Numbered from the stretch's first letter, positions 53,356 to 64,000 are shown. The stretch: DNA of 64,000 nt from an uncultured Bacteroidia bacterium (GCA_903923905.1 CAIXZH010000024.1:1-64000); one strand, 5' to 3'. The notes: a model not told the origin generated them from the letters alone. Program-made: numbers and translations.

Positions 53356-53424
53356 AAAAACCAAGCTAAACCTCTCTCTGGATTATGTCAACTATTTTTG
53401 TATTTTCGGGCTAAATTTCCAAAA

Positions 53425-54354
53425 ATGAAGTGCCTCTTTCTAATCTTATCTTTGCTATCTTTTCATACTTACGCACAGGAATCTGTTTATCTGTTTTCTT
53501 ACTTTACCGATAATGGTCAGGATGGATTACACCTAGCATACAGCAATGATGGTTTGAAATGGAAAGCACTAAACGGAGGAAAACCCCTGGTTGCTCCGAC
53601 AGTTGGTCCGGATAAACTGATGCGTGATCCTTTTATCTTGCTCGGGAAAGACGGAATATTTCATATGGTTTGGACGAGCAGCTGGAGAGATCGCCAGATC
53701 GGCTACGCATCATCGGCAGATTTGATTAACTGGTCGGTACAAAAAACGATCCCGGTAATGGCCAGGGAGCCAACAGCCAAGAATTGCTGGGCTCCCGAAA
53801 TGGTCTATGATCCTCAGAATAAAAACTATATCATCTTCTGGGCCACCACAATTCCCGGGAGACATTCTGATGTGGCAGATTCTGAACACGAAAAAGGGTG
53901 GAATCACAGGATCTATTACACTACTACCACAGATTTTAAAAATTTTAGTCAAACCAGGCTATTTTTCAATCCAGATTTTAGCGCGATTGACGCCAAAATC
54001 CTTTCAAAAGGAGACTCATTTTATATGTTTCTAAAGAATGAAAATCCAAATCCGCCCGAAAAAAATATCCGGATGACCCAGTCGAAATCGGCATCAGGCC
54101 CCTACCCAATTGATGTATCTGCTCCCATAACGGGAAAATACTGGGCTGAGGGACCAAGTTCCGTCATAATTGGCGATTATGTGTACGTTTATTTTGATAA
54201 ATACAGGGATCATCATTATGGAGCAGTAAGGTCAAAAAACATGAAAGATTGGGAAGACATATCCGATCGGGTAATTTTTCCCGATGGAACCCGTCATGGA
54301 ACCGCATTTAAAGTCTCCGATAAAATATTCAACAAACTAATTAATCTGAAATGA
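53425..54354 (+). CDS. GH43-like five-bladed beta-propeller glycosidase
   Basis: Signal peptide from internal Met (MKCLFLILSLLSFHTYAQ); DGLHLAYSNDGLKWKAL, MRDPFILLGKDGIFHMVWTSSW, NCWAPEMVYDPQNKNYIIFWATT, EGPSSVIIGDYVYVYFDKY. Confidence 0.88.
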   Translation: MKCLFLILSLLSFHTYAQESVYLFSYFTDNGQDGLHLAYSNDGLKWKALNGGKPLVAPTVGPDKLMRDPFILLGKDGIFHMVWTSSWRDRQIGYASSADLINWSVQKTIPVMAREPTAKNCWAPEMVYDPQNKNYIIFWATTIPGRHSDVADSEHEKGWNHRIYYTTTTDFKNFSQTRLFFNPDFSAIDAKILSKGDSFYMFLKNENPNPPEKNIRMTQSKSASGPYPIDVSAPITGKYWAEGPSSVIIGDYVYVYFDKYRDHHYGAVRSKNMKDWEDISDRVIFPDGTRHGTAFKVSDKIFNKLINLK

Positions 54355-57116
54355 CCGGACTAAAGTATCTATTTCAATGCCTGGCAATATTATGGGTTTT
54401 CTCTGTCAACGCTCAGAATCCAGTATCAGTCACAAACTTAAAATGCGATTCCAGGACCAATCCTCTGGGTATTAACATACAGAATCCACATTTAAGCTGG
54501 GAAATCCAATCTTCAGAAAGAGATATCCGGCAAGTTTCCTATCATATCCTTGTCTCTGACAGTCCTGAAAAACTTCAAAATAATATTGGGAACATCTGGG
54601 ATTCAAAACCAGTAAAATCAGATCAGTCGGTGCAAGTTGAATATTCCGGAACTCCACTAAGTGCTGACCGGAAATATTATTGGAAAGTAAAAATTGTCAG
54701 CCAGTCGCGAAAGGAATCACCCTGGAGTGAACCAGCCACCTGGCAAATGGGGCTTCTTACAGCAAAAGACTGGGATAAAGCACAATGGATCAGCTTTGAA
54801 AATCTTCCGGAATCATTGAGAGTTATTCCGGGTGTACATGGTGACGGAAAAGAATTAGGACCCAAGGCAGTTAAACGAAGTGTCGTCCCACAATTCAGAA
54901 AAGAGTTTAGGGTTGAAAAACAAGTTAATAATGCAACGCTTTATATCTGTGGATTAGGCCATTACGAGGCATCAATTAACGGCCATAAAATCGGGAAAAG
55001 CTTCCTGGCTCCCGGCTGGACAAATTACGAAAAAGTCTGCCTTTATAATACCTATGATGTCACCGGGTTTTTAAAATCGGGGAAGAATGCCATTGGAGTA
55101 ATTGTGGGGAACGGATTTTACAATATCAACAGGGAACGGTACCGGAAACTGGTAATCGCCTATGGCTATCCCAAAATGATCGGTAAACTTAAAATAGATT
55201 ACACGGACGGTAGTACAACAACCATTATTTCCGGAACCGACTGGAAATGCGACCTCTCCCCTATCCTTTTTTCAAGTATCTATGGAGGAGAGGATTATGA
55301 CGCAAGAATGGAACAGAAAAGTTGGAATTTACCCGGATTTAACGACATCAAATGGAAATCTGCAATTGTTGCAGCCGGTCCCTCCGGTGAGCTCAATGCC
55401 GAAACTGACAATCCGGTTACGGTTCGGGAAAACATAACCGTAAAGAAAACTGAGCAACCTGCTTCCGGCAAATTCCTCTACGATTTTGGACAGAATTGCT
55501 CAGGAATTATCGAACTTAAGGTGACCGGAAAACGAGGCTCCGTGATTAAACTTACACCGGGAGAACTGATAACCAAGGAGAAAACAATCAATCAAAAGGC
55601 TTCCGGCACTCCATATTTTTATACCTATACCCTTAAGGGAGAAGGTGTCGAAACCTGGAGACCCCGATTTTCCTATTACGGTTTCAGGTACTTAATGGTC
55701 GAAGGTGCCGCCCCATCATCGGAAAAACCAGGCAAGTATAAACCGCAGATTATTGATCTTCAAATGCTCCACACCTGCAATTCCGCTTTAAAAACGGGGG
55801 AATTTAGTTGTTCCAATCAACTCTTTAATCAAATTTATACCCTGATTGATTGGGCAATACGAAGTAATATTCAAAGTGTAGTTACCGATTGTCCTCATCG
55901 CGAAAAGCTGGGCTGGCTGGAGCAAACCTACCTTATGGGAGCATCGATGTTTTATAATTATGATTTATATCCCCTTTACCGGAAAGCAATCCGGGATATG
56001 ATTGTTTCACAGACCGCAGATGGATTAGTGCCCGACATCGCGCCAGAATTTGTACCCTTCCAGGGTGGTTTCCGCGATTCTCCCGAATGGGGAAGTGCTG
56101 GAGTAATCCTCCCATGGATGCTTTGGCAATGGAACGGCGATCTTTCGGTCGTGAGGGAGGCTTTGCCAATGATGAAAAAATATGTTGCCTACCTTGGAAC
56201 AAAGGCAGAGGGACATATTCTTTCATATGGCTTGGGTGATTGGTTTGATTACGGGCCCAAAGCTCCGGGCGAAGCTCAGCTTACCCCAAAATCGCTTACC
56301 GCAACAGCCATTTATTATTACGATATTATTTTGCTCGGTAAAATGATGGAAATAACTGACCAAAAAGACGATGCACGCGAAATGCAGGCTCTGGCAGCGG
56401 AGGTAAGGAATGCTTTTAATTCCAAATTCTTCAACCCAAAAACAAAAGTTTACTCAACAGGAAGCCAAACAGCCATGGCTATGCCGCTGTGCGTAGGATT
56501 AGTTGATGAAAAAGTGAAAACAGACGTTTTCAATAATCTTGTTGAGTCCATAAACAAATCGGGGAAAACCTTAACTGCCGGAGATATAGGATTTCATTTT
56601 CTCGTGAAAGCACTTGAAGAAGGTGGCGGGTCTCAGCTTTTGTTTGATATGAACTTCAGGAATGATGTTCCGGGTTATGGTTTTCAATTGAAGAAAGGGG
56701 CCACGGCTTTGACAGAGTCATGGCCTGCACTCGAGGAAGTATCGAATAATCACCTGATGCTCGGACACATTATGGAGTGGTTTTATACCGGGCTTGGGGG
56801 AATTAAACAGGATGAACGAAGTGAAGGATTCAAACATATCATCATCAGGCCTGAAATAGTTGGTGACCTTACCTGGGTAAAATCAAGTTACCAATGTCAG
56901 TATGGATTGATCGCAAGTGAATGGGAAAAGGGAAACGAGGAACTTGAAATGAAGGTGGAGATTCCGTCAAATACAGATGCCATCATTTATTTTCCGACAA
57001 AAAAGGGAACATCAGTCTCAGAAAACGGCAAGAAAATAAATGTTCTAAAATCTTCCTGGGGACAATATTATTGTAAGGTCGGTTCCGGTATTTACAACTT
57101 CAGGATGGCAAATTAA
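54351..57116 (+). CDS. GH78 alpha-L-rhamnosidase
   Basis: NPLGINIQNPHLSWEIQSSERDIRQVSYHILVSDS; TNYEKVCLYNTYDVTGFLKSGKNAIGVIVGNGFYN; VVTDCPHREKLGWLEQTYLMG; DWFDYGPKAPGE. ATGA overlap with the upstream GH43. Confidence 0.94.
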   Translation: MTGLKYLFQCLAILWVFSVNAQNPVSVTNLKCDSRTNPLGINIQNPHLSWEIQSSERDIRQVSYHILVSDSPEKLQNNIGNIWDSKPVKSDQSVQVEYSGTPLSADRKYYWKVKIVSQSRKESPWSEPATWQMGLLTAKDWDKAQWISFENLPESLRVIPGVHGDGKELGPKAVKRSVVPQFRKEFRVEKQVNNATLYICGLGHYEASINGHKIGKSFLAPGWTNYEKVCLYNTYDVTGFLKSGKNAIGVIVGNGFYNINRERYRKLVIAYGYPKMIGKLKIDYTDGSTTTIISGTDWKCDLSPILFSSIYGGEDYDARMEQKSWNLPGFNDIKWKSAIVAAGPSGELNAETDNPVTVRENITVKKTEQPASGKFLYDFGQNCSGIIELKVTGKRGSVIKLTPGELITKEKTINQKASGTPYFYTYTLKGEGVETWRPRFSYYGFRYLMVEGAAPSSEKPGKYKPQIIDLQMLHTCNSALKTGEFSCSNQLFNQIYTLIDWAIRSNIQSVVTDCPHREKLGWLEQTYLMGASMFYNYDLYPLYRKAIRDMIVSQTADGLVPDIAPEFVPFQGGFRDSPEWGSAGVILPWMLWQWNGDLSVVREALPMMKKYVAYLGTKAEGHILSYGLGDWFDYGPKAPGEAQLTPKSLTATAIYYYDIILLGKMMEITDQKDDAREMQALAAEVRNAFNSKFFNPKTKVYSTGSQTAMAMPLCVGLVDEKVKTDVFNNLVESINKSGKTLTAGDIGFHFLVKALEEGGGSQLLFDMNFRNDVPGYGFQLKKGATALTESWPALEEVSNNHLMLGHIMEWFYTGLGGIKQDERSEGFKHIIIRPEIVGDLTWVKSSYQCQYGLIASEWEKGNEELEMKVEIPSNTDAIIYFPTKKGTSVSENGKKINVLKSSWGQYYCKVGSGIYNFRMAN

Positions 57117-57182
57117 TTCCAATTTAAAATTGAACATGCAAAAATTCAACTATTAATTTATTCATTTACAGAATAATAGAAT

Positions 57183-59156
57183 ATGGTTTTCCCCATTCAA
57201 ATCAGTGAGTTTATCATCATCCTGGTATTATTTGTCAGTTTCAGTTCAGCTATTGGTGCTGAAAACCTGACTAACAAAGGAGTTCATGCTATAGGAGATG
57301 GAAATATCTGTGTTTACGGAAAAGGATCAAATATCCTACAGCTTTTTGGTGCACCATATTCCACCCCATCCATCCTTCGGGTAACGCTTTCTGGAACTGA
57401 TAGCACATCCTCAGAAAGAATTAGCGGAACAGCTATTTGGAATCACCAAATTATACGTGGAGGATCGGTAATTTCAACTGAAACCGATTTTATCAGTTCC
57501 CTGGCAGGATCATTCATCCGGGAGATATCTACCACAGCTGAAGTAACCTATGATTTGGAGGTAAACCCCGATCAGGGATATAAAAACTATAGTTCACTGG
57601 TATCTGTTATCCCTGAAAAAGAAACATCCACTAACCAGACTAATCAAACATATCTGGTTGAGGTTCAGAAAAGTGTGCCGCTGATGTTTTCATATTTGCC
57701 GCCCAAAGGAAGGTATTATCGGCTTATGCTCAGCGGAAATGCAACATTTTCACCCGTTGACTCAACCAAAAAGAAAATAAGATTAAAACTTCTGCCTGGC
57801 AAAAGCATATTATTTGTTATTGCAGGTGAATCTGTTGATGAGTTGGATAAACACACAAAACAACTTAATTCAATTTCTATTGATTCGTTAATGTTTCTGA
57901 ATAAAAAGCAATGGCAGAAGTTCTCCATTTTTCATCAGAAGATTACAAGAAAGATCAATGATTCTACCATTCAAAATGCGGTTGATGATGTTTCGGTTTT
58001 AATTAAATCGCAACAGGGGGCGGACGGAGGAGTTTTAGCTGGTCATGATTATCACATGGGATATGTGCGCGATCAGTATGGTGTTTCGCGTGGATTCCTT
58101 GCGATGGGACATTATGAAGAAGCAAAAAAAATTCTGGAGTTTTATTATCAAAATTGGAACCAGTCAGGATTTATTAAAAATGCCCAGGCAATCGGCTTTC
58201 CAAATATTTTTCATCGTCACGAGAATGATGAGGTGGAAATCACCGGTTACCTTGTCTTGCAGGCCATGGATTATTATACAAAAACGAATGACCTTCCATT
58301 TATAGGTAAGATTTTGCCTATGCTGGAATGGGCCATCGATGCCCAAAAAAGAAATCTGGTGGATGGCATGCTCCCATTTAATGGGGATGAAACTTACATT
58401 GCAGGGGGAATTTTACCCCGGAAAGTCATGTATAACGGGTCTGCCGAGGCCACATTACTCTTTATTGAAGGCACAACAAGGTTTCTTAACTGTGTGAATA
58501 CATACAAACTTTGGAACCCGGAAAAAGCAGCTGATTTGAAGAAAACTGTTCAGGAGTGTGCCGACCGTTACCGCAAGAACTTCTTTCAAAATGGAATCCT
58601 GTTTACCAACAATCCCGAAAGGGAGACAAAAATCCGGTATCCCGCCTCCAGATTTGGAGTTTGTCTCCATCCAGGACATGGCGGTTATGCCTCGGAAGTA
58701 TTTCATTTTAAGGGATCACTCTATTTTTGCAAGGATTGCATGGCAAAGGATAATTCAATGGTTGTTGTTCCGGAACCCGAAATCTTTAGTATTGTTTCCG
58801 TCTCTTTATTTCCCTTTTACATCAATTCTACCTTGTTCACAACACCGGAGAAAAAGCGATTGATTGAACGGGTGATCAAATACTATCATAATACAGGTAA
58901 TGTTTCTGAGAAAAATGTAATCCTTGGTTCTGATTATGGATTTTTCCTGGACGGACTGGTAGCAGTTGATAATAAATTGAAAGATGAGATATTTCTGAGA
59001 ATGATGAATCTTCGGGATGACTCGGGATCCTGGGTGGAATATTACAATTCAGGAAAGGCAATGGGATGTAAATGCCGTCCATGGGAAAGCGGTGTAAATA
59101 TTGAGGCAGCAATAAGGTATTGGGAGAATAAACAGGAAAATCACTTAGGAATTTAA
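57183..59156 (+). CDS. six-hairpin glycosidase-like secreted protein (GH15-like architecture)
   Basis: Signal peptide; C-terminal (alpha/alpha)6-like region (DGGVLAGHDYHMGYVRDQYGVSRGFLAMGHYEEAKKILEFYYQNWNQSG...ITGYLVLQAMDYYTKTNDLPFIGKILPMLEWAIDAQKRNLVDGMLPFNGDETYI). Confidence 0.72.
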   Translation: MVFPIQISEFIIILVLFVSFSSAIGAENLTNKGVHAIGDGNICVYGKGSNILQLFGAPYSTPSILRVTLSGTDSTSSERISGTAIWNHQIIRGGSVISTETDFISSLAGSFIREISTTAEVTYDLEVNPDQGYKNYSSLVSVIPEKETSTNQTNQTYLVEVQKSVPLMFSYLPPKGRYYRLMLSGNATFSPVDSTKKKIRLKLLPGKSILFVIAGESVDELDKHTKQLNSISIDSLMFLNKKQWQKFSIFHQKITRKINDSTIQNAVDDVSVLIKSQQGADGGVLAGHDYHMGYVRDQYGVSRGFLAMGHYEEAKKILEFYYQNWNQSGFIKNAQAIGFPNIFHRHENDEVEITGYLVLQAMDYYTKTNDLPFIGKILPMLEWAIDAQKRNLVDGMLPFNGDETYIAGGILPRKVMYNGSAEATLLFIEGTTRFLNCVNTYKLWNPEKAADLKKTVQECADRYRKNFFQNGILFTNNPERETKIRYPASRFGVCLHPGHGGYASEVFHFKGSLYFCKDCMAKDNSMVVVPEPEIFSIVSVSLFPFYINSTLFTTPEKKRLIERVIKYYHNTGNVSEKNVILGSDYGFFLDGLVAVDNKLKDEIFLRMMNLRDDSGSWVEYYNSGKAMGCKCRPWESGVNIEAAIRYWENKQENHLGI

Positions 59157-59254
59157 AATATAAATTGCAAATTGCAACACAGAAATTTAAGTCTTCTCAA
59201 AATTCAATAATAATAGATTAATCGTTTGATATTCAGAATCAACCAGATCACAAA

Positions 59255-60064
59255 ATGGAAAATACAAGGAGAAACTTTTTAAAAGCGGCGGCTCTGTCAG
59301 GGGCTGGAGCATTATTAATTCCATCGTTGGCCCACGGTTCAGAAAAGAAAAAACCAAGGTCAAAAGGAAAAGCGTTAGTTCTTAAAGAAAATGCAGTCAT
59401 CCTGTTTCAGGGCGATTCCATTACCGATGCAGGTAGGGATCGTAAAAAAGGGGATCCGAATAATGCAGATGCCATTGGCAAGGGATATGCACTTTTCGCA
59501 TCGGGTCATTTACTCGAAAAATTCGCTCAAAAAAACCTGAAAATATTCAATCGCGGTGTGAGTGGAAATAAGGTTTTCCAGTTGCGTGAAAGATGGGATG
59601 AGGATTGTATCGCACTGAACCCTGACGTGATCAGCATCCTGGTAGGTGTAAATGATTATTGGCATACGTTGGATGGCAAATATAATGGAACACTCCAGAA
59701 ATTTGTAACAGATTACAGGGAACTGCTAAATTACACCCGATCAAAACTGCCAAATGTTCAATTGATTATTTGCGAACCATATACCCTCAAAGGTGGCGGA
59801 GCAATCAAACCGGAACAATGGTATCCGATGTTTGACGAATACCGGAAAGCCACCAAACAATTAGCCACAGAGTTTAAGGCAGTTTACGTCCCCTTCCAAA
59901 CAATGTACGACAAGGCGACAAAACGTGCACCCGACCATTATTGGGCCCCCGACGGTATTCATCCCGGACTTCCAGGTGCTGCACTGATGGCTGGAAGTTG
60001 GCTGAAAAAGACCGGATTGTACAAAAAGGGGAAGAAAAAGAAAGTAAAAGAGGAAAACGCTTAA
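59255..60064 (+). CDS. SGNH/GDSL hydrolase with Tat-type signal
   Basis: MENTRRNFLKAAALSGAGALLIPSLAHG; ILFQGDSITDAGRD (block I), NRGVSGNK, ILVGVNDYWH, DGIHPGLPGAALMA. Confidence 0.93.
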   Translation: MENTRRNFLKAAALSGAGALLIPSLAHGSEKKKPRSKGKALVLKENAVILFQGDSITDAGRDRKKGDPNNADAIGKGYALFASGHLLEKFAQKNLKIFNRGVSGNKVFQLRERWDEDCIALNPDVISILVGVNDYWHTLDGKYNGTLQKFVTDYRELLNYTRSKLPNVQLIICEPYTLKGGGAIKPEQWYPMFDEYRKATKQLATEFKAVYVPFQTMYDKATKRAPDHYWAPDGIHPGLPGAALMAGSWLKKTGLYKKGKKKKVKEENA

Positions 60065-60921: not shown

Positions 60922-61123
60922 CTGAAAATAATTTAGTTAATTAATTGAATATCGAATAGCTTTCATAAAACCTACATAAAACAAGTTTATCCTTAGGCTT
61001 CAAGTCTAATAAACATATCATCCTGTAATATAGTTCGAAACGGACCTTATTTTCTTTTAATTTTAAGGATTCATTGAAATATTCTGAAAATCAGTAGGAA
61101 AAGAGAGGCTTAAAGATAAATAG

Positions 61124-61231
61124 TGTTGATTTATTCAACAACTGTAAAGATTATACACAATTGATCTATATCATTACATATCAATTATTTAGGCATATCT
61201 AACCTAAATAGTGTTGATTAATTAAACACTT
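61124..61231. promoter_or_regulatory. cluster of inverted/direct repeat elements upstream of the PstS-GcvH fusion gene
   Basis: TAAATAGTGTTGATTTATTCAACA and TAAATAGTGTTGATTAATTAAACACT (shared TAAATAGTGTTGATT), flanking ATTGAT-N14-ATCAAT. Confidence 0.5.
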
Positions 61232-61351
61232 ATCGTATTTATTAAACAGCCATACATATACCTATTCCATTGTTATTCATATACTTAATCTCTTCATTTA
61301 TCTTGGCATTATAATTGAGTATCCCTTATTATCAATTAATAACGGGAAATC

Positions 61352-63049
61352 ATGAAAACCAGGATCTTTTTAGTCATCGGAATTATACTGTTTAATTACA
61401 GTATCGTTCTTAGTCAGGAATTGGGCACAGCAAGAATCCATACCCAAAAGGGTAATTTAAAAGTGTTTTCCTCTCCTGAATTATTCCCGCTTACGACAAA
61501 ATGGATAAGCGAATACAATAAATTAAATCCCGGACTGAAAATTGAGCTGAAAACAACTGCCGAAATGGATCTTAAAGAATCTCTTAATTCCGGTGAAACC
61601 CTTGGCTTTGTTTCTGATCAATCTGTTTCTCAGGTAAAAAATCAATTCACATGGAATTTGGTTGTTGCCCGGGATATTATTGTTCCCGTCATGAATGAAT
61701 CCAATCCACTTACGGCAGAGATTTGCAGACGGGGGATTACCTCCGAAGGAATTGCCAGACTTATGGAAACTCCCTTAAAACCAAATTGGAGAATGCTCTT
61801 TGCAAACGCCCAAAATATCAATGAGCAACCGGTGCACTACTATTTTGTGAATGATCCCGAGTTAACTGCTGCTGCTTCAAATTTCACCAGAACCAAACAG
61901 ACTGCCCCGGCCGGCATTAAGGTTGCCAGCGAAGCTGAACTCATTGCCGCTATCCAAAATGATCCAAACGGATTTGGTTTCTGCAGACTGACTCAAGCCA
62001 CAGATCCACAAAACAAAAATCTGGCTGCTCACATTAAGCTTGTCCCTATTGATAAAAACGGAAATGGCCGGATTGATTATGCCGAAGCTATCTATTACAA
62101 TCTCCAGGAGTTTTCACGCGGGGTATGGATCGGAAGATACCCCCAGCCATTATCCGGAAAAATTTACTCCGTTTCTTCAGTCAAGCCAAAAGGTGCAATC
62201 CAACTCTCATTTTTAAATTGGGTACTGACTGATGGACAGCGATTTTTAAGCAGTAATGGTTATAATGATTTGGTTCTCAATGAAAGACAATCTCAGCTTG
62301 ATAAAATTATTGAACCTCAGGTATATGCAAGTGCACCAACTGAAACCAATCCGTTTTTAATCATTAGGATTTTAATCATTCTGGCTATCGGAGTTATTGT
62401 TGTAGCATTAGAATTCGTATTTCGTCGTGTCAGGACGCAGGAAAAAGTCGGAGCCAGGTTTACTTCGACTCTGTTAGAAGTGGTTAATGAGGAAAATATT
62501 GCAATTCCACGGGGACTCTACTTTGATCAAACTCATACATGGGCATTTATGAAAAAAGATGGCCTTGTAAAAATCGGAATAGACGACTTTCTGCAACATG
62601 TTACAGGTCCGCTTACCCGGGTTGTGATGAAAAATACGGGTGATAAAATTAAAAAAGGAGATCATCTGCTCACAATCATTCAAAATGGGAAACATTTGAG
62701 AATCTATTCCCCGGTTACCGGAACAATAACCGCTCAAAACAAGGAATTATTCGATAATTCAAGTTTGCTTAATTCCGCTCCTTTTACAGATGGATGGATC
62801 TATACGGTTGAGCCTACAAACTGGTTACTCGAAATCCAGTTCATGAATATGGCCGAAAAGTACTCAACCTGGTTAAAAGACGAATATTTAAGATTAAGGG
62901 ATTTCTTTGAAGCGGCAGTCAGGTTTCATGTTCCTGCATTTATCATGGTTTTACAGGATGGGGGAGTGCTGAGAGATGGAATACTCGGAGAACTTGGCCC
63001 GGAAATCTGGGAAGATTTCCAGACAAAATTCATGGATGTCAAAAAATAG
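61352..63049 (+). CDS. PstS-like periplasmic substrate-binding domain, TM helix and GcvH-like domain fusion
   Basis: N-terminal signal and binding-protein-like domain (LKVFSSPELFPLTTKWISEYNKLNPGLKIELK...); TM helix (IIRILIILAIGVIVVALEFVF); GcvH-like C-terminus (GLYFDQTHTWAFMKKDGLVKIGIDDFLQHVTGPLTRVVMKNTGDKIKKGDHLLTIIQNGKHLRIYSPVTGTI). Confidence 0.85.
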   Translation: MKTRIFLVIGIILFNYSIVLSQELGTARIHTQKGNLKVFSSPELFPLTTKWISEYNKLNPGLKIELKTTAEMDLKESLNSGETLGFVSDQSVSQVKNQFTWNLVVARDIIVPVMNESNPLTAEICRRGITSEGIARLMETPLKPNWRMLFANAQNINEQPVHYYFVNDPELTAAASNFTRTKQTAPAGIKVASEAELIAAIQNDPNGFGFCRLTQATDPQNKNLAAHIKLVPIDKNGNGRIDYAEAIYYNLQEFSRGVWIGRYPQPLSGKIYSVSSVKPKGAIQLSFLNWVLTDGQRFLSSNGYNDLVLNERQSQLDKIIEPQVYASAPTETNPFLIIRILIILAIGVIVVALEFVFRRVRTQEKVGARFTSTLLEVVNEENIAIPRGLYFDQTHTWAFMKKDGLVKIGIDDFLQHVTGPLTRVVMKNTGDKIKKGDHLLTIIQNGKHLRIYSPVTGTITAQNKELFDNSSLLNSAPFTDGWIYTVEPTNWLLEIQFMNMAEKYSTWLKDEYLRLRDFFEAAVRFHVPAFIMVLQDGGVLRDGILGELGPEIWEDFQTKFMDVKK

Positions 63050-63139
63050 TTGAAGACAATCCGTATAATCTGTAAAAGTGGGAATTACTCCTTTTTACAA
63101 TCAGATAAATGGACTTTTCTTTGGAATTTGTTAATTTTA

Positions 63140-63170
63140 AAAACTGTTGTCAAGGCAACAGTTTTTTTTT
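63140..63170 (+). terminator. Rho-independent terminator
   Basis: AAAACTGTTG-tcaagg-CAACAGTTTTTTTTT downstream of the fusion gene. Confidence 0.85.
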
Positions 63171-63214
63171 GTAATTTGCAGGTGAATGGAAACACTTGCT
63201 AACAAGCTGAACAG

Positions 63215-64000
63215 ATGTTCTTCAGAAAAAAAAACACCACCAAAACAGGAAACGTAATACTTAATAATTACGTTAAATTCAGGTCTTCCATTTACGGCAG
63301 AGTCGTATTGATAATCACCTACCTGTCTGTATTTCTCTTCGTCTCATTCAGCCTTATTTTTAAGTCGGTGAATGAGCATTACCTGAATACCCTCATCCGC
63401 CAGAATGGCAACAATATCGGTTCAATCGTTGAGGGGGCATTATATCATTCGATGCTCGAGAATGATAAAAGTTCATTGCGAAACACACTCGACATTATCA
63501 ATACCTTGCCCGGAATAGATGAGGTGAACATGTATGACAGCGACGAAGACCTCGTCTATTCATCATTTGGATCAGATACGGATACGAGCAGCAAACACAG
63601 CGATCCGAATTGCAAAAGTTGCCATCCCAATATCAAATCGATGTTCTCCCAAAAAGAGAAAACATATAAAATAATCAATGTCAACAGCGATTGCGAGATG
63701 AATGTCAATGATAACGGAAGCAGGCATTTACTGATAAAATCGCCGATTTTAAATGAAAAATCCTGTTCTGTGAGTTCCTGTCACGCTCATAAGGAATCGG
63801 AGGAATTACTGGGATCATTAGTGATTAAAATCCCACTGGAGGCTCAGGATGCAGCTATTCAGAAATCCTCCATCGAGTTCTTCCTTCTGGCCATCTTTGC
63901 AACTGGAGTTTTCGTGCTGGTATTGCTGTTTTTTACCAGGAGAAAGATAAAAGATCCACTCAATGCATTAATAGAAGTGAGTATAGCTGTCGCCAACGGG
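63215..64000 (+). CDS. membrane sensor protein (probable histidine kinase or chemoreceptor-like), N-terminal part with two heme-c-type motifs; truncated by window edge
   Basis: ATG at 63215 opens a frame to the window end (262 codons, not in ORF track): MFFRKKNTTKTGNVILNNYVKFRSSIYGRVVLIITYLSVFLFVSFSLIFKSV...SDPNCKSCHPNIKS...KSPILNEKSCSVSSCHAHKESEELLGSLVIKIPLEAQDAAIQKSSIEFFLLAIFATGVFVLVLLFFTRRKIKDPLNALIEVSIAVANG; CxxCH at 63611-63625, CX4CH at 63764-63784, second TM then HAMP-like start. Confidence 0.85.
   Translation, partial: MFFRKKNTTKTGNVILNNYVKFRSSIYGRVVLIITYLSVFLFVSFSLIFKSVNEHYLNTLIRQNGNNIGSIVEGALYHSMLENDKSSLRNTLDIINTLPGIDEVNMYDSDEDLVYSSFGSDTDTSSKHSDPNCKSCHPNIKSMFSQKEKTYKIINVNSDCEMNVNDNGSRHLLIKSPILNEKSCSVSSCHAHKESEELLGSLVIKIPLEAQDAAIQKSSIEFFLLAIFATGVFVLVLLFFTRRKIKDPLNALIEVSIAVANG

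Follow-up and report, generated by a model that had tools for sequence, protein, structure and literature searches.

The window, by which we mean the whole 64,000-nucleotide stretch of DNA from an uncultured Bacteroidia bacterium that was analysed here, contains near its end a 565-aa ORF on the plus strand (61352..63049), followed by the start of a second gene on the same strand. The 565-aa protein consists, in this order, of a signal peptide, a substrate-binding protein (SBP) domain with the PstS fold, one transmembrane (TM) helix and a GcvH fold; coordinates, GCV_H match and fold matches agree here with the earlier note on this DNA, which had read the ORF starting at 61352 in the same way. 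In the structure model of this fusion protein, helix 2-19 corresponds to the signal peptide and the helix at about residues 334-362 to the single TM helix (62351..62437, plus strand), and as the latter is followed by the basic stretch FRRVR, the GcvH part is expected to be cytoplasmic. The region upstream (53398-60064) contains carbohydrate genes. Their products are a protein resembling GH43/GH32, an alpha-L-rhamnosidase of the GH78 type, a protein of 657 aa to which no Pfam model matched, and an SGNH/GDSL hydrolase for which the Tat-signal match was weak; the region probably serves polysaccharide degradation and has no relation to the genes described here. An association with phage or defence genes was rejected (a single PHROG match, E 0.16, and no match with PADLOC).

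The periplasmic PstS-fold domain (61448..62311, plus strand) resembles PstS only weakly in sequence (TIGR02136 E 0.002, under the curated thresholds), while its model has the two-lobed PBP fold and was matched by Foldseek to phosphate-binding proteins, 4jwo among others (E 7e-16). The PstS anion-binding loops (SGxxxxYP, GGxGxG, RxDxxG) have been lost: the same genome contains a PstS paralogue (G000:C36, where PBP_like_2, permease and ATPase genes are present), and its loops SGAFALYP, GGAGKG and RSDACGAAE are not conserved in the fusion. No ABC transporter genes (pstCAB) adjoining the fusion gene were found at the window locus. A real PstS, or phosphate sensing by the fusion, was rejected on the loss of the ligand loops. 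For the redox or ligand-sensing module proposed in the earlier note this loss speaks against a phosphate-type ligand sensor; a sensor kinase and a conserved two-gene unit were indeed found. The SBP domain also contains an EF-hand-like loop, DKNGNGRIDYAE (62051..62086, plus strand), with the pattern present in 99 of the 101 members and in standalone PstS paralogues as well; this DxNxNGxIDxxE loop of Bacteroidota PstS-like proteins (window 61352-63049, L165 9228-10178) persists despite the loss of the ligand loops.

The GcvH-fold domain (62504..62884, plus strand) was recognised by the GCV_H Pfam model at residues 389-510 (E 9e-23; 80.9 bits, cut-off 22.2) and has the barrel-sandwich fold of the H-protein, matching the E. 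coli H protein (3ab9/3a8i) with a TM(target) of 0.92-0.93 and an rmsd of about 1.4-1.5 A, while its score for the TIGR00527 equivalog model is 65 bits against a cut-off of 115.85. At the position of the lipoyl lysine there is a glycine (Gly446 in the sequence NGK, codon at 62687..62689, plus strand), as in all fusions scored (99/99), and none of the 79 proteins of the shorter family GcvH2 (see below) has a lysine at this position; neither the lysine of the ESVKA hairpin nor ESVKA-type surroundings are retained in the fusion. As the fusion has no lipoyl lysine, and as the genuine GcvH of this genome is encoded by a separate gene (G000:C56) and has kept its lysine, a role of the fusion in glycine cleavage was rejected, and the suggestion that the GcvH-like domain has been repurposed is supported. 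It is followed by a C-terminal tail (LQDGG...LGPE.WEDFQ..F; 62885..63046, plus strand), which with its LQDGG and WEDFQ motifs is common to the fusion and GcvH2 and specific to the family, with residues Q535, G537, G538, W553, F556, Q557 and F560 invariant over 21 sequences. With glycine at the lipoyl-lysine position and the PstS ligand loops gone, both domains of the fusion look repurposed.

The second gene starts at 63215 (63215..64000 within the window, plus strand), and reading it past the window end on its 206 kb contig showed that it continues to contig position 64888 and encodes a complete histidine kinase of 557 aa, with HAMP, HisKA and HATPase_c domains; the protein with heme-binding motifs that the earlier note could follow only to the window end is thus a true sensor kinase. 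Its two motifs, CKSCH (63611..63625, plus strand, residues 133-137) and CSVSSCH (63764..63784, plus strand, residues 184-190), the latter being of the CX4CH type and followed by an invariant xH, are present as originally noticed, and an alignment of 49 kinases, taken from the family as well as from distant families of the phylum, shows no variation in their Cys and His residues. Both motifs were found by simple pattern in 77 of a wider set of 81 kinases, with CX5CH in two further loci. A cytochrome c assembly gene (Cytochrom_C_asm) is present in the window's genome, and the motifs are predicted to attach heme. The model of the sensor domain (pLDDT 77, moderate) resembles the WalK sCache fold, with Foldseek matches to GSU0935 and GSU0582, Geobacter sensors that belong to the sCache_heme family and have one CXXCH (PMC12889525). 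Like these members of the sCache_heme (DUF3365/Tll0287) family, the window kinase is a signalling protein with a periplasmic sensor, here predicted to be of the PAS/Cache type and to carry covalent heme c (PMC12889525, PMC3460858), but it has two predicted heme motifs, the second CX4CHxH, and no match to the sCache_heme profile PF11845 up to E 0.1, and we therefore consider it a related or convergent type. Four loci (L077, L106, L109, L111) have two kinase genes of this family in tandem inside the module.

The spacer of 165 bp between fusion and kinase genes contains an intrinsic terminator (63139..63166, plus strand), a real hairpin of -12.9 kcal/mol including flanks (z -3.8) at the place where one had been noted before (63140-63170). 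Just after it lies a candidate -7 element, TAATTTG (63172..63178, plus strand), which is conserved at this position in relatives and may belong to a promoter for the kinase, regulator and M54 genes; the Bacteroidota -7 consensus is TAnnTTTG. Transcription of the kinase genes probably starts anew behind the terminator, in line with the separate transcription that the earlier note had considered. The kinase gene is followed by a gene for an NtrC-family regulator of 447 aa (contig 64903-66246), with a receiver domain (PF00072), a sigma-54 activation domain (PF00158) and a Fis-type HTH (PF02954), all above cut-off, and this by a gene for an M54 archaemetzincin (contig 66297-66866, L002 8298-8867; PF07998 E 3e-25) with the motif HEXXHXXGX3CX4CXM, which is present in 72 of the 73 family members. 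A gene for M54 with intact zinc motif ends the module nearly everywhere, reduced loci included.

Upstream of the fusion gene there is a sigma-54 type -24/-12 promoter, TGGCAT-N5-TTGAG (61304..61319, plus strand), and an element of the type TGGCA-N6-TTG was found at this place in 90 of 92 loci; RpoN is encoded in the window's genome. The promoter is preceded, at fixed spacing, by paired palindromes of the form GTGTT-N9-AACAC. Over 90 loci, 106 TGTT-N9-AACA cores were seen against 1.05 expected in shuffles, and most of them were 68-70, 92-95 or 179-183 bp away from the -24 element. In the window, the distal palindromic enhancer site GTGTTGATTTATTCAACAA (61123..61141, plus strand), a candidate binding site for the regulator with one mismatch to GTGTTNATTNATTNAACAC, is located 181 bp upstream of the -24 element, which is one modal position over the 90 loci, and the proximal site GTGTTGATTAATTAAACAC (61211..61229, plus strand), an exact match, is located 93 bp upstream, again a modal position. 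There are three matches to GTGTTNATTNATTNAACAC in the window against 0.11 expected, and in the window's genome the distal and proximal sites are the sole ones above chance level, and on these grounds the idea that the regulator controls further genes in this genome was rejected; two further matches to the paired-palindrome pattern look unspecific. Linkage and layout together are as expected for activation of the fusion gene by the adjacent NtrC-type regulator.

We compared the neighbourhoods of the fusion gene (11-19 kb) in the genomes of the family. The working set contained 101 relatives of the fusion; in a collection of 85,462 species genomes a scan found 219 relatives, and the 80 retained from these are all labelled as Bacteroidota MAGs. 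The fusion is present in about 20 of the 60 genomes of the family searched. The usual gene order is fusion, 4Fe-4S protein, NrfD-type membrane protein, a shorter TM-GcvH protein (GcvH2), kinase, regulator and M54. All seven genes occur in this order in 46 of the 53 loci with enough downstream sequence, with the remainder having the fusion, kinase, regulator and M54 genes only (four loci) or other partial sets (three loci). The earlier note had proposed surveying the neighbourhood of the PstS-GcvH architecture, and a conserved unit is what this survey gave; of the two findings which that note had named as speaking against it, a downstream ORF ending without signalling domain or a neighbourhood conserved in no relative, neither was made, since signalling domains and a conserved neighbourhood are both present. 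A chance juxtaposition of fusion and kinase is ruled out by conservation in about 100 loci. The reading as a two-gene system holds for the conserved pair, but lacked the partners HmcB/HmcC, GcvH2, the NtrC regulator and the archaemetzincin, as well as the sigma-54 and palindrome control of the fusion and the loss of three genes described below.

The middle genes encode proteins whose nearest counterparts are HmcB and HmcC from the Hmc complex (HmcB model E 3e-99, HmcC model E 8e-121, NrfD Pfam E 1e-12, with HmcB and HmcC below the NCBIfam equivalog cut-offs), and then to HybA/HybB, and the 4Fe-4S protein of the relatives has 16-18 Cys and mostly a Tat motif. No obvious gene for a periplasmic electron donor or acceptor is conserved in the complete module. 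Locus organisation varies in some genomes: G009 has both forms, a complete complex locus without kinase genes (L048) and a reduced one with kinase, regulator and M54 (L049), and in L128 the order is rotated, with kinase, regulator and M54 upstream of fusion, HmcB, HmcC and GcvH2. Distant families of the phylum have most of the set, with the order unchanged, and of the 11 loci read there 7 are complete or almost complete. Their first gene encodes a TM-GcvH without SBP domain, which suggests that the PstS fusion is probably the derived form. The second GcvH protein of these families has an N-terminal Cys motif (CxWMxAGVVxYKLCDxxFxCExCPFD) in place of the TM helix present in GcvH2 of the Bacteroidales, and this four-Cys segment (L154 6550-7401, L162 12509-13357 and others) could bind a metal or an Fe-S cluster. 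In L160 (10099-11675) the TM-GcvH gene borders directly on the Cys-GcvH gene, HmcB/HmcC are missing from between the two, and a GH28-like ORF comes next; this is possibly another reduced form, outside the Bacteroidales and near a contig end.

At the window locus, the fusion gene is followed straight by the kinase gene, and the genes for HmcB, HmcC and GcvH2 are missing. The terminator and TAATTTGCAGG in the spacer between the fusion and kinase genes align with the GcvH2-kinase spacer of the closest complete relatives. When the NrfD protein was used as query, neither the window's genome nor any of six others with only a reduced locus gave a relative, while all six control genomes did; most of the genomes are MAGs, so that absence by itself is no proof of loss. 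In the fusion-protein tree the window is nested in a clade of complete loci, and explaining the reduced state takes six changes, of which well-supported branches force at least four. The spacer homology and the lack of NrfD in the genome therefore identify the window state as secondary loss, repeated elsewhere: the three middle genes have been deleted from this genome. The converse, a gain in the relatives, was rejected for the window on the spacer homology and the nested position in the tree. The four remaining genes are intact, the promoter and both control sites are at modal spacing, and family-invariant residues have been kept. Purifying selection is apparent from a dN/dS of about 0.16 for the fusion between the reduced relatives L076 and L079, and with a reduced and a complete locus compared (L085/L086) included, values are about 0.16-0.17 and within the range of complete pairs. 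These low values in pairs with reduced loci indicate that the fusion is still functional where the electron-transfer proteins are gone.

The complete module shares with the Desulfovibrio Hmc complex (HmcB-HmcC) and with HybA-HybB of E. coli hydrogenase 2 the succession of a tail-anchored Tat-type 4Fe-4S protein and a membrane protein with an NrfD/HybB-type quinone site. Such HmcB/HybB-like pairs occur with cytochromes or hydrogenases and team with different periplasmic partners (PMC10924467). Unlike these systems, the module has no genes for a cytochrome, a hydrogenase or HmcDEF, and instead has two GcvH-like membrane proteins, one fused to a PstS-like domain, its own heme-sensor two-component system and an archaemetzincin; the Hmc/Hyb-type gene pair is found in the complete loci of the relatives and is absent from the window copy. 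The kinase, the regulator with receiver, AAA+ sigma-54 and HTH domains, and the palindromic enhancers upstream of a -24/-12 promoter resemble the NtrC/AtoC-ZraR sigma-54 systems, but the sensor is a predicted di-heme c domain, and the only target sites above chance in the window's genome are upstream of the adjacent SBP-GcvH gene. The window copy is no member of the Hmc family, its fusion is neither a GcvH nor a PstS, and its sensor fails the sCache_heme profile.

On balance we favour, with some confidence, the interpretation that a redox-sensing two-component system controls its own membrane redox module, with the window copy reduced to sensor, regulator, archaemetzincin and fusion. The periplasmic sCache-like domain with its two predicted c-type hemes would sense a redox or gas signal and alter the activity of the kinase, which would phosphorylate the NtrC-family regulator; this in turn would bind the palindromes at their fixed distances upstream of the sigma-54 promoter and activate the fusion-HmcB-HmcC-GcvH2 operon. 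The fusion, the HmcB-like 4Fe-4S protein, the HmcC/HybB-type quinone-site protein and GcvH2 probably form one complex, which may link the periplasm and the menaquinone pool by electron transfer through a reaction with quinone, with the lipoyl-less GcvH folds as presumed structural or docking subunits on the cytoplasmic side. As the window's genome is without HmcB, HmcC and GcvH2, the role of the fusion there would be independent of the electron-transfer subunits, and with only the sensing half and the fusion left, it most likely serves the heme sensor from within the membrane, as its output or as a feedback partner.

That reduced genomes have kept the fusion with kinase, regulator and M54 after losing the electron-transfer genes, and that it is still under purifying selection, would also fit a fusion acting as periplasmic accessory ligand sensor, as in TorT-TorS and other pairs of SBP and kinase, where the SBP binds a small molecule and touches the sensor domain of the kinase. 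We regard this as rather unlikely: the PstS-fold domain no longer has its anion-binding loops, the same type of kinase is accompanied in other families of the phylum by a TM-GcvH without SBP, and the loci in G009:C68, G029 and G041 (L048, L043 and L046) have the fusion with HmcB/HmcC and no kinase. The loss of three genes and the long branches of some reduced copies (L047, L118) could alternatively mean that the window locus is a decaying, non-functional remnant on its way out after the loss of the electron-transfer genes, but the state of the remaining genes, control sites, promoter and invariant residues, and the low dN/dS between L076 and L079, make this improbable.

Even less probable, to our mind, is that the GcvH domains are redox carriers in the complex, lipoylated or with some other swinging arm on K447, the lysine next to the lipoyl position. 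K447 is invariant in the fusions (alignment of 21 sequences), and LbpA of sHdr sulfur oxidation demonstrates that GcvH-like proteins can serve redox pathways outside glycine cleavage, but in LbpA the lipoyl lysine is strictly conserved, and the protein goes together with hdr-like genes (PMC6067878), while the fusion has a glycine there and is membrane-anchored. The adjoining lysine is not invariant in GcvH2, the aligned lipoyl position is glycine in every fusion scored, the ESVKA-type context is gone, and in the module cluster we saw no genes of the hdr-like kind. In E2 lipoyl domains, shifting the lysine by one residue prevents lipoylation, which also speaks against such an arm.

In the open-access literature no paper turned up in which GcvH occurs together with NrfD, archaemetzincin together with a histidine kinase, or CX4CH together with both a histidine kinase and heme c, and the full combination was not found, only neighbouring topics. 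Apparently this is an undescribed, conserved bacterial redox module, and there is a modest chance that in its stripped form it represents a signalling unit of a new type. We tentatively put forward, as a possibility somewhat short of even, that a predicted di-heme kinase of the Bacteroidota controls, via sigma-54, a membrane complex with lipoyl-less H-protein folds as its core, and that in the stripped genomes the H-protein-like protein, being the sole evident target of the sensor, is a signalling or feedback element and not an electron carrier. If true, this would add to the anaerobic Bacteroidota a widespread respiratory and redox-sensing module with conserved gene order, in which the metabolic GcvH fold is reused as a membrane subunit without its cofactor and which has a two-component system with predictable DNA sites, while the genomes that have the sensor half without the electron-transfer half would be natural deletion experiments separating signalling from electron transfer.
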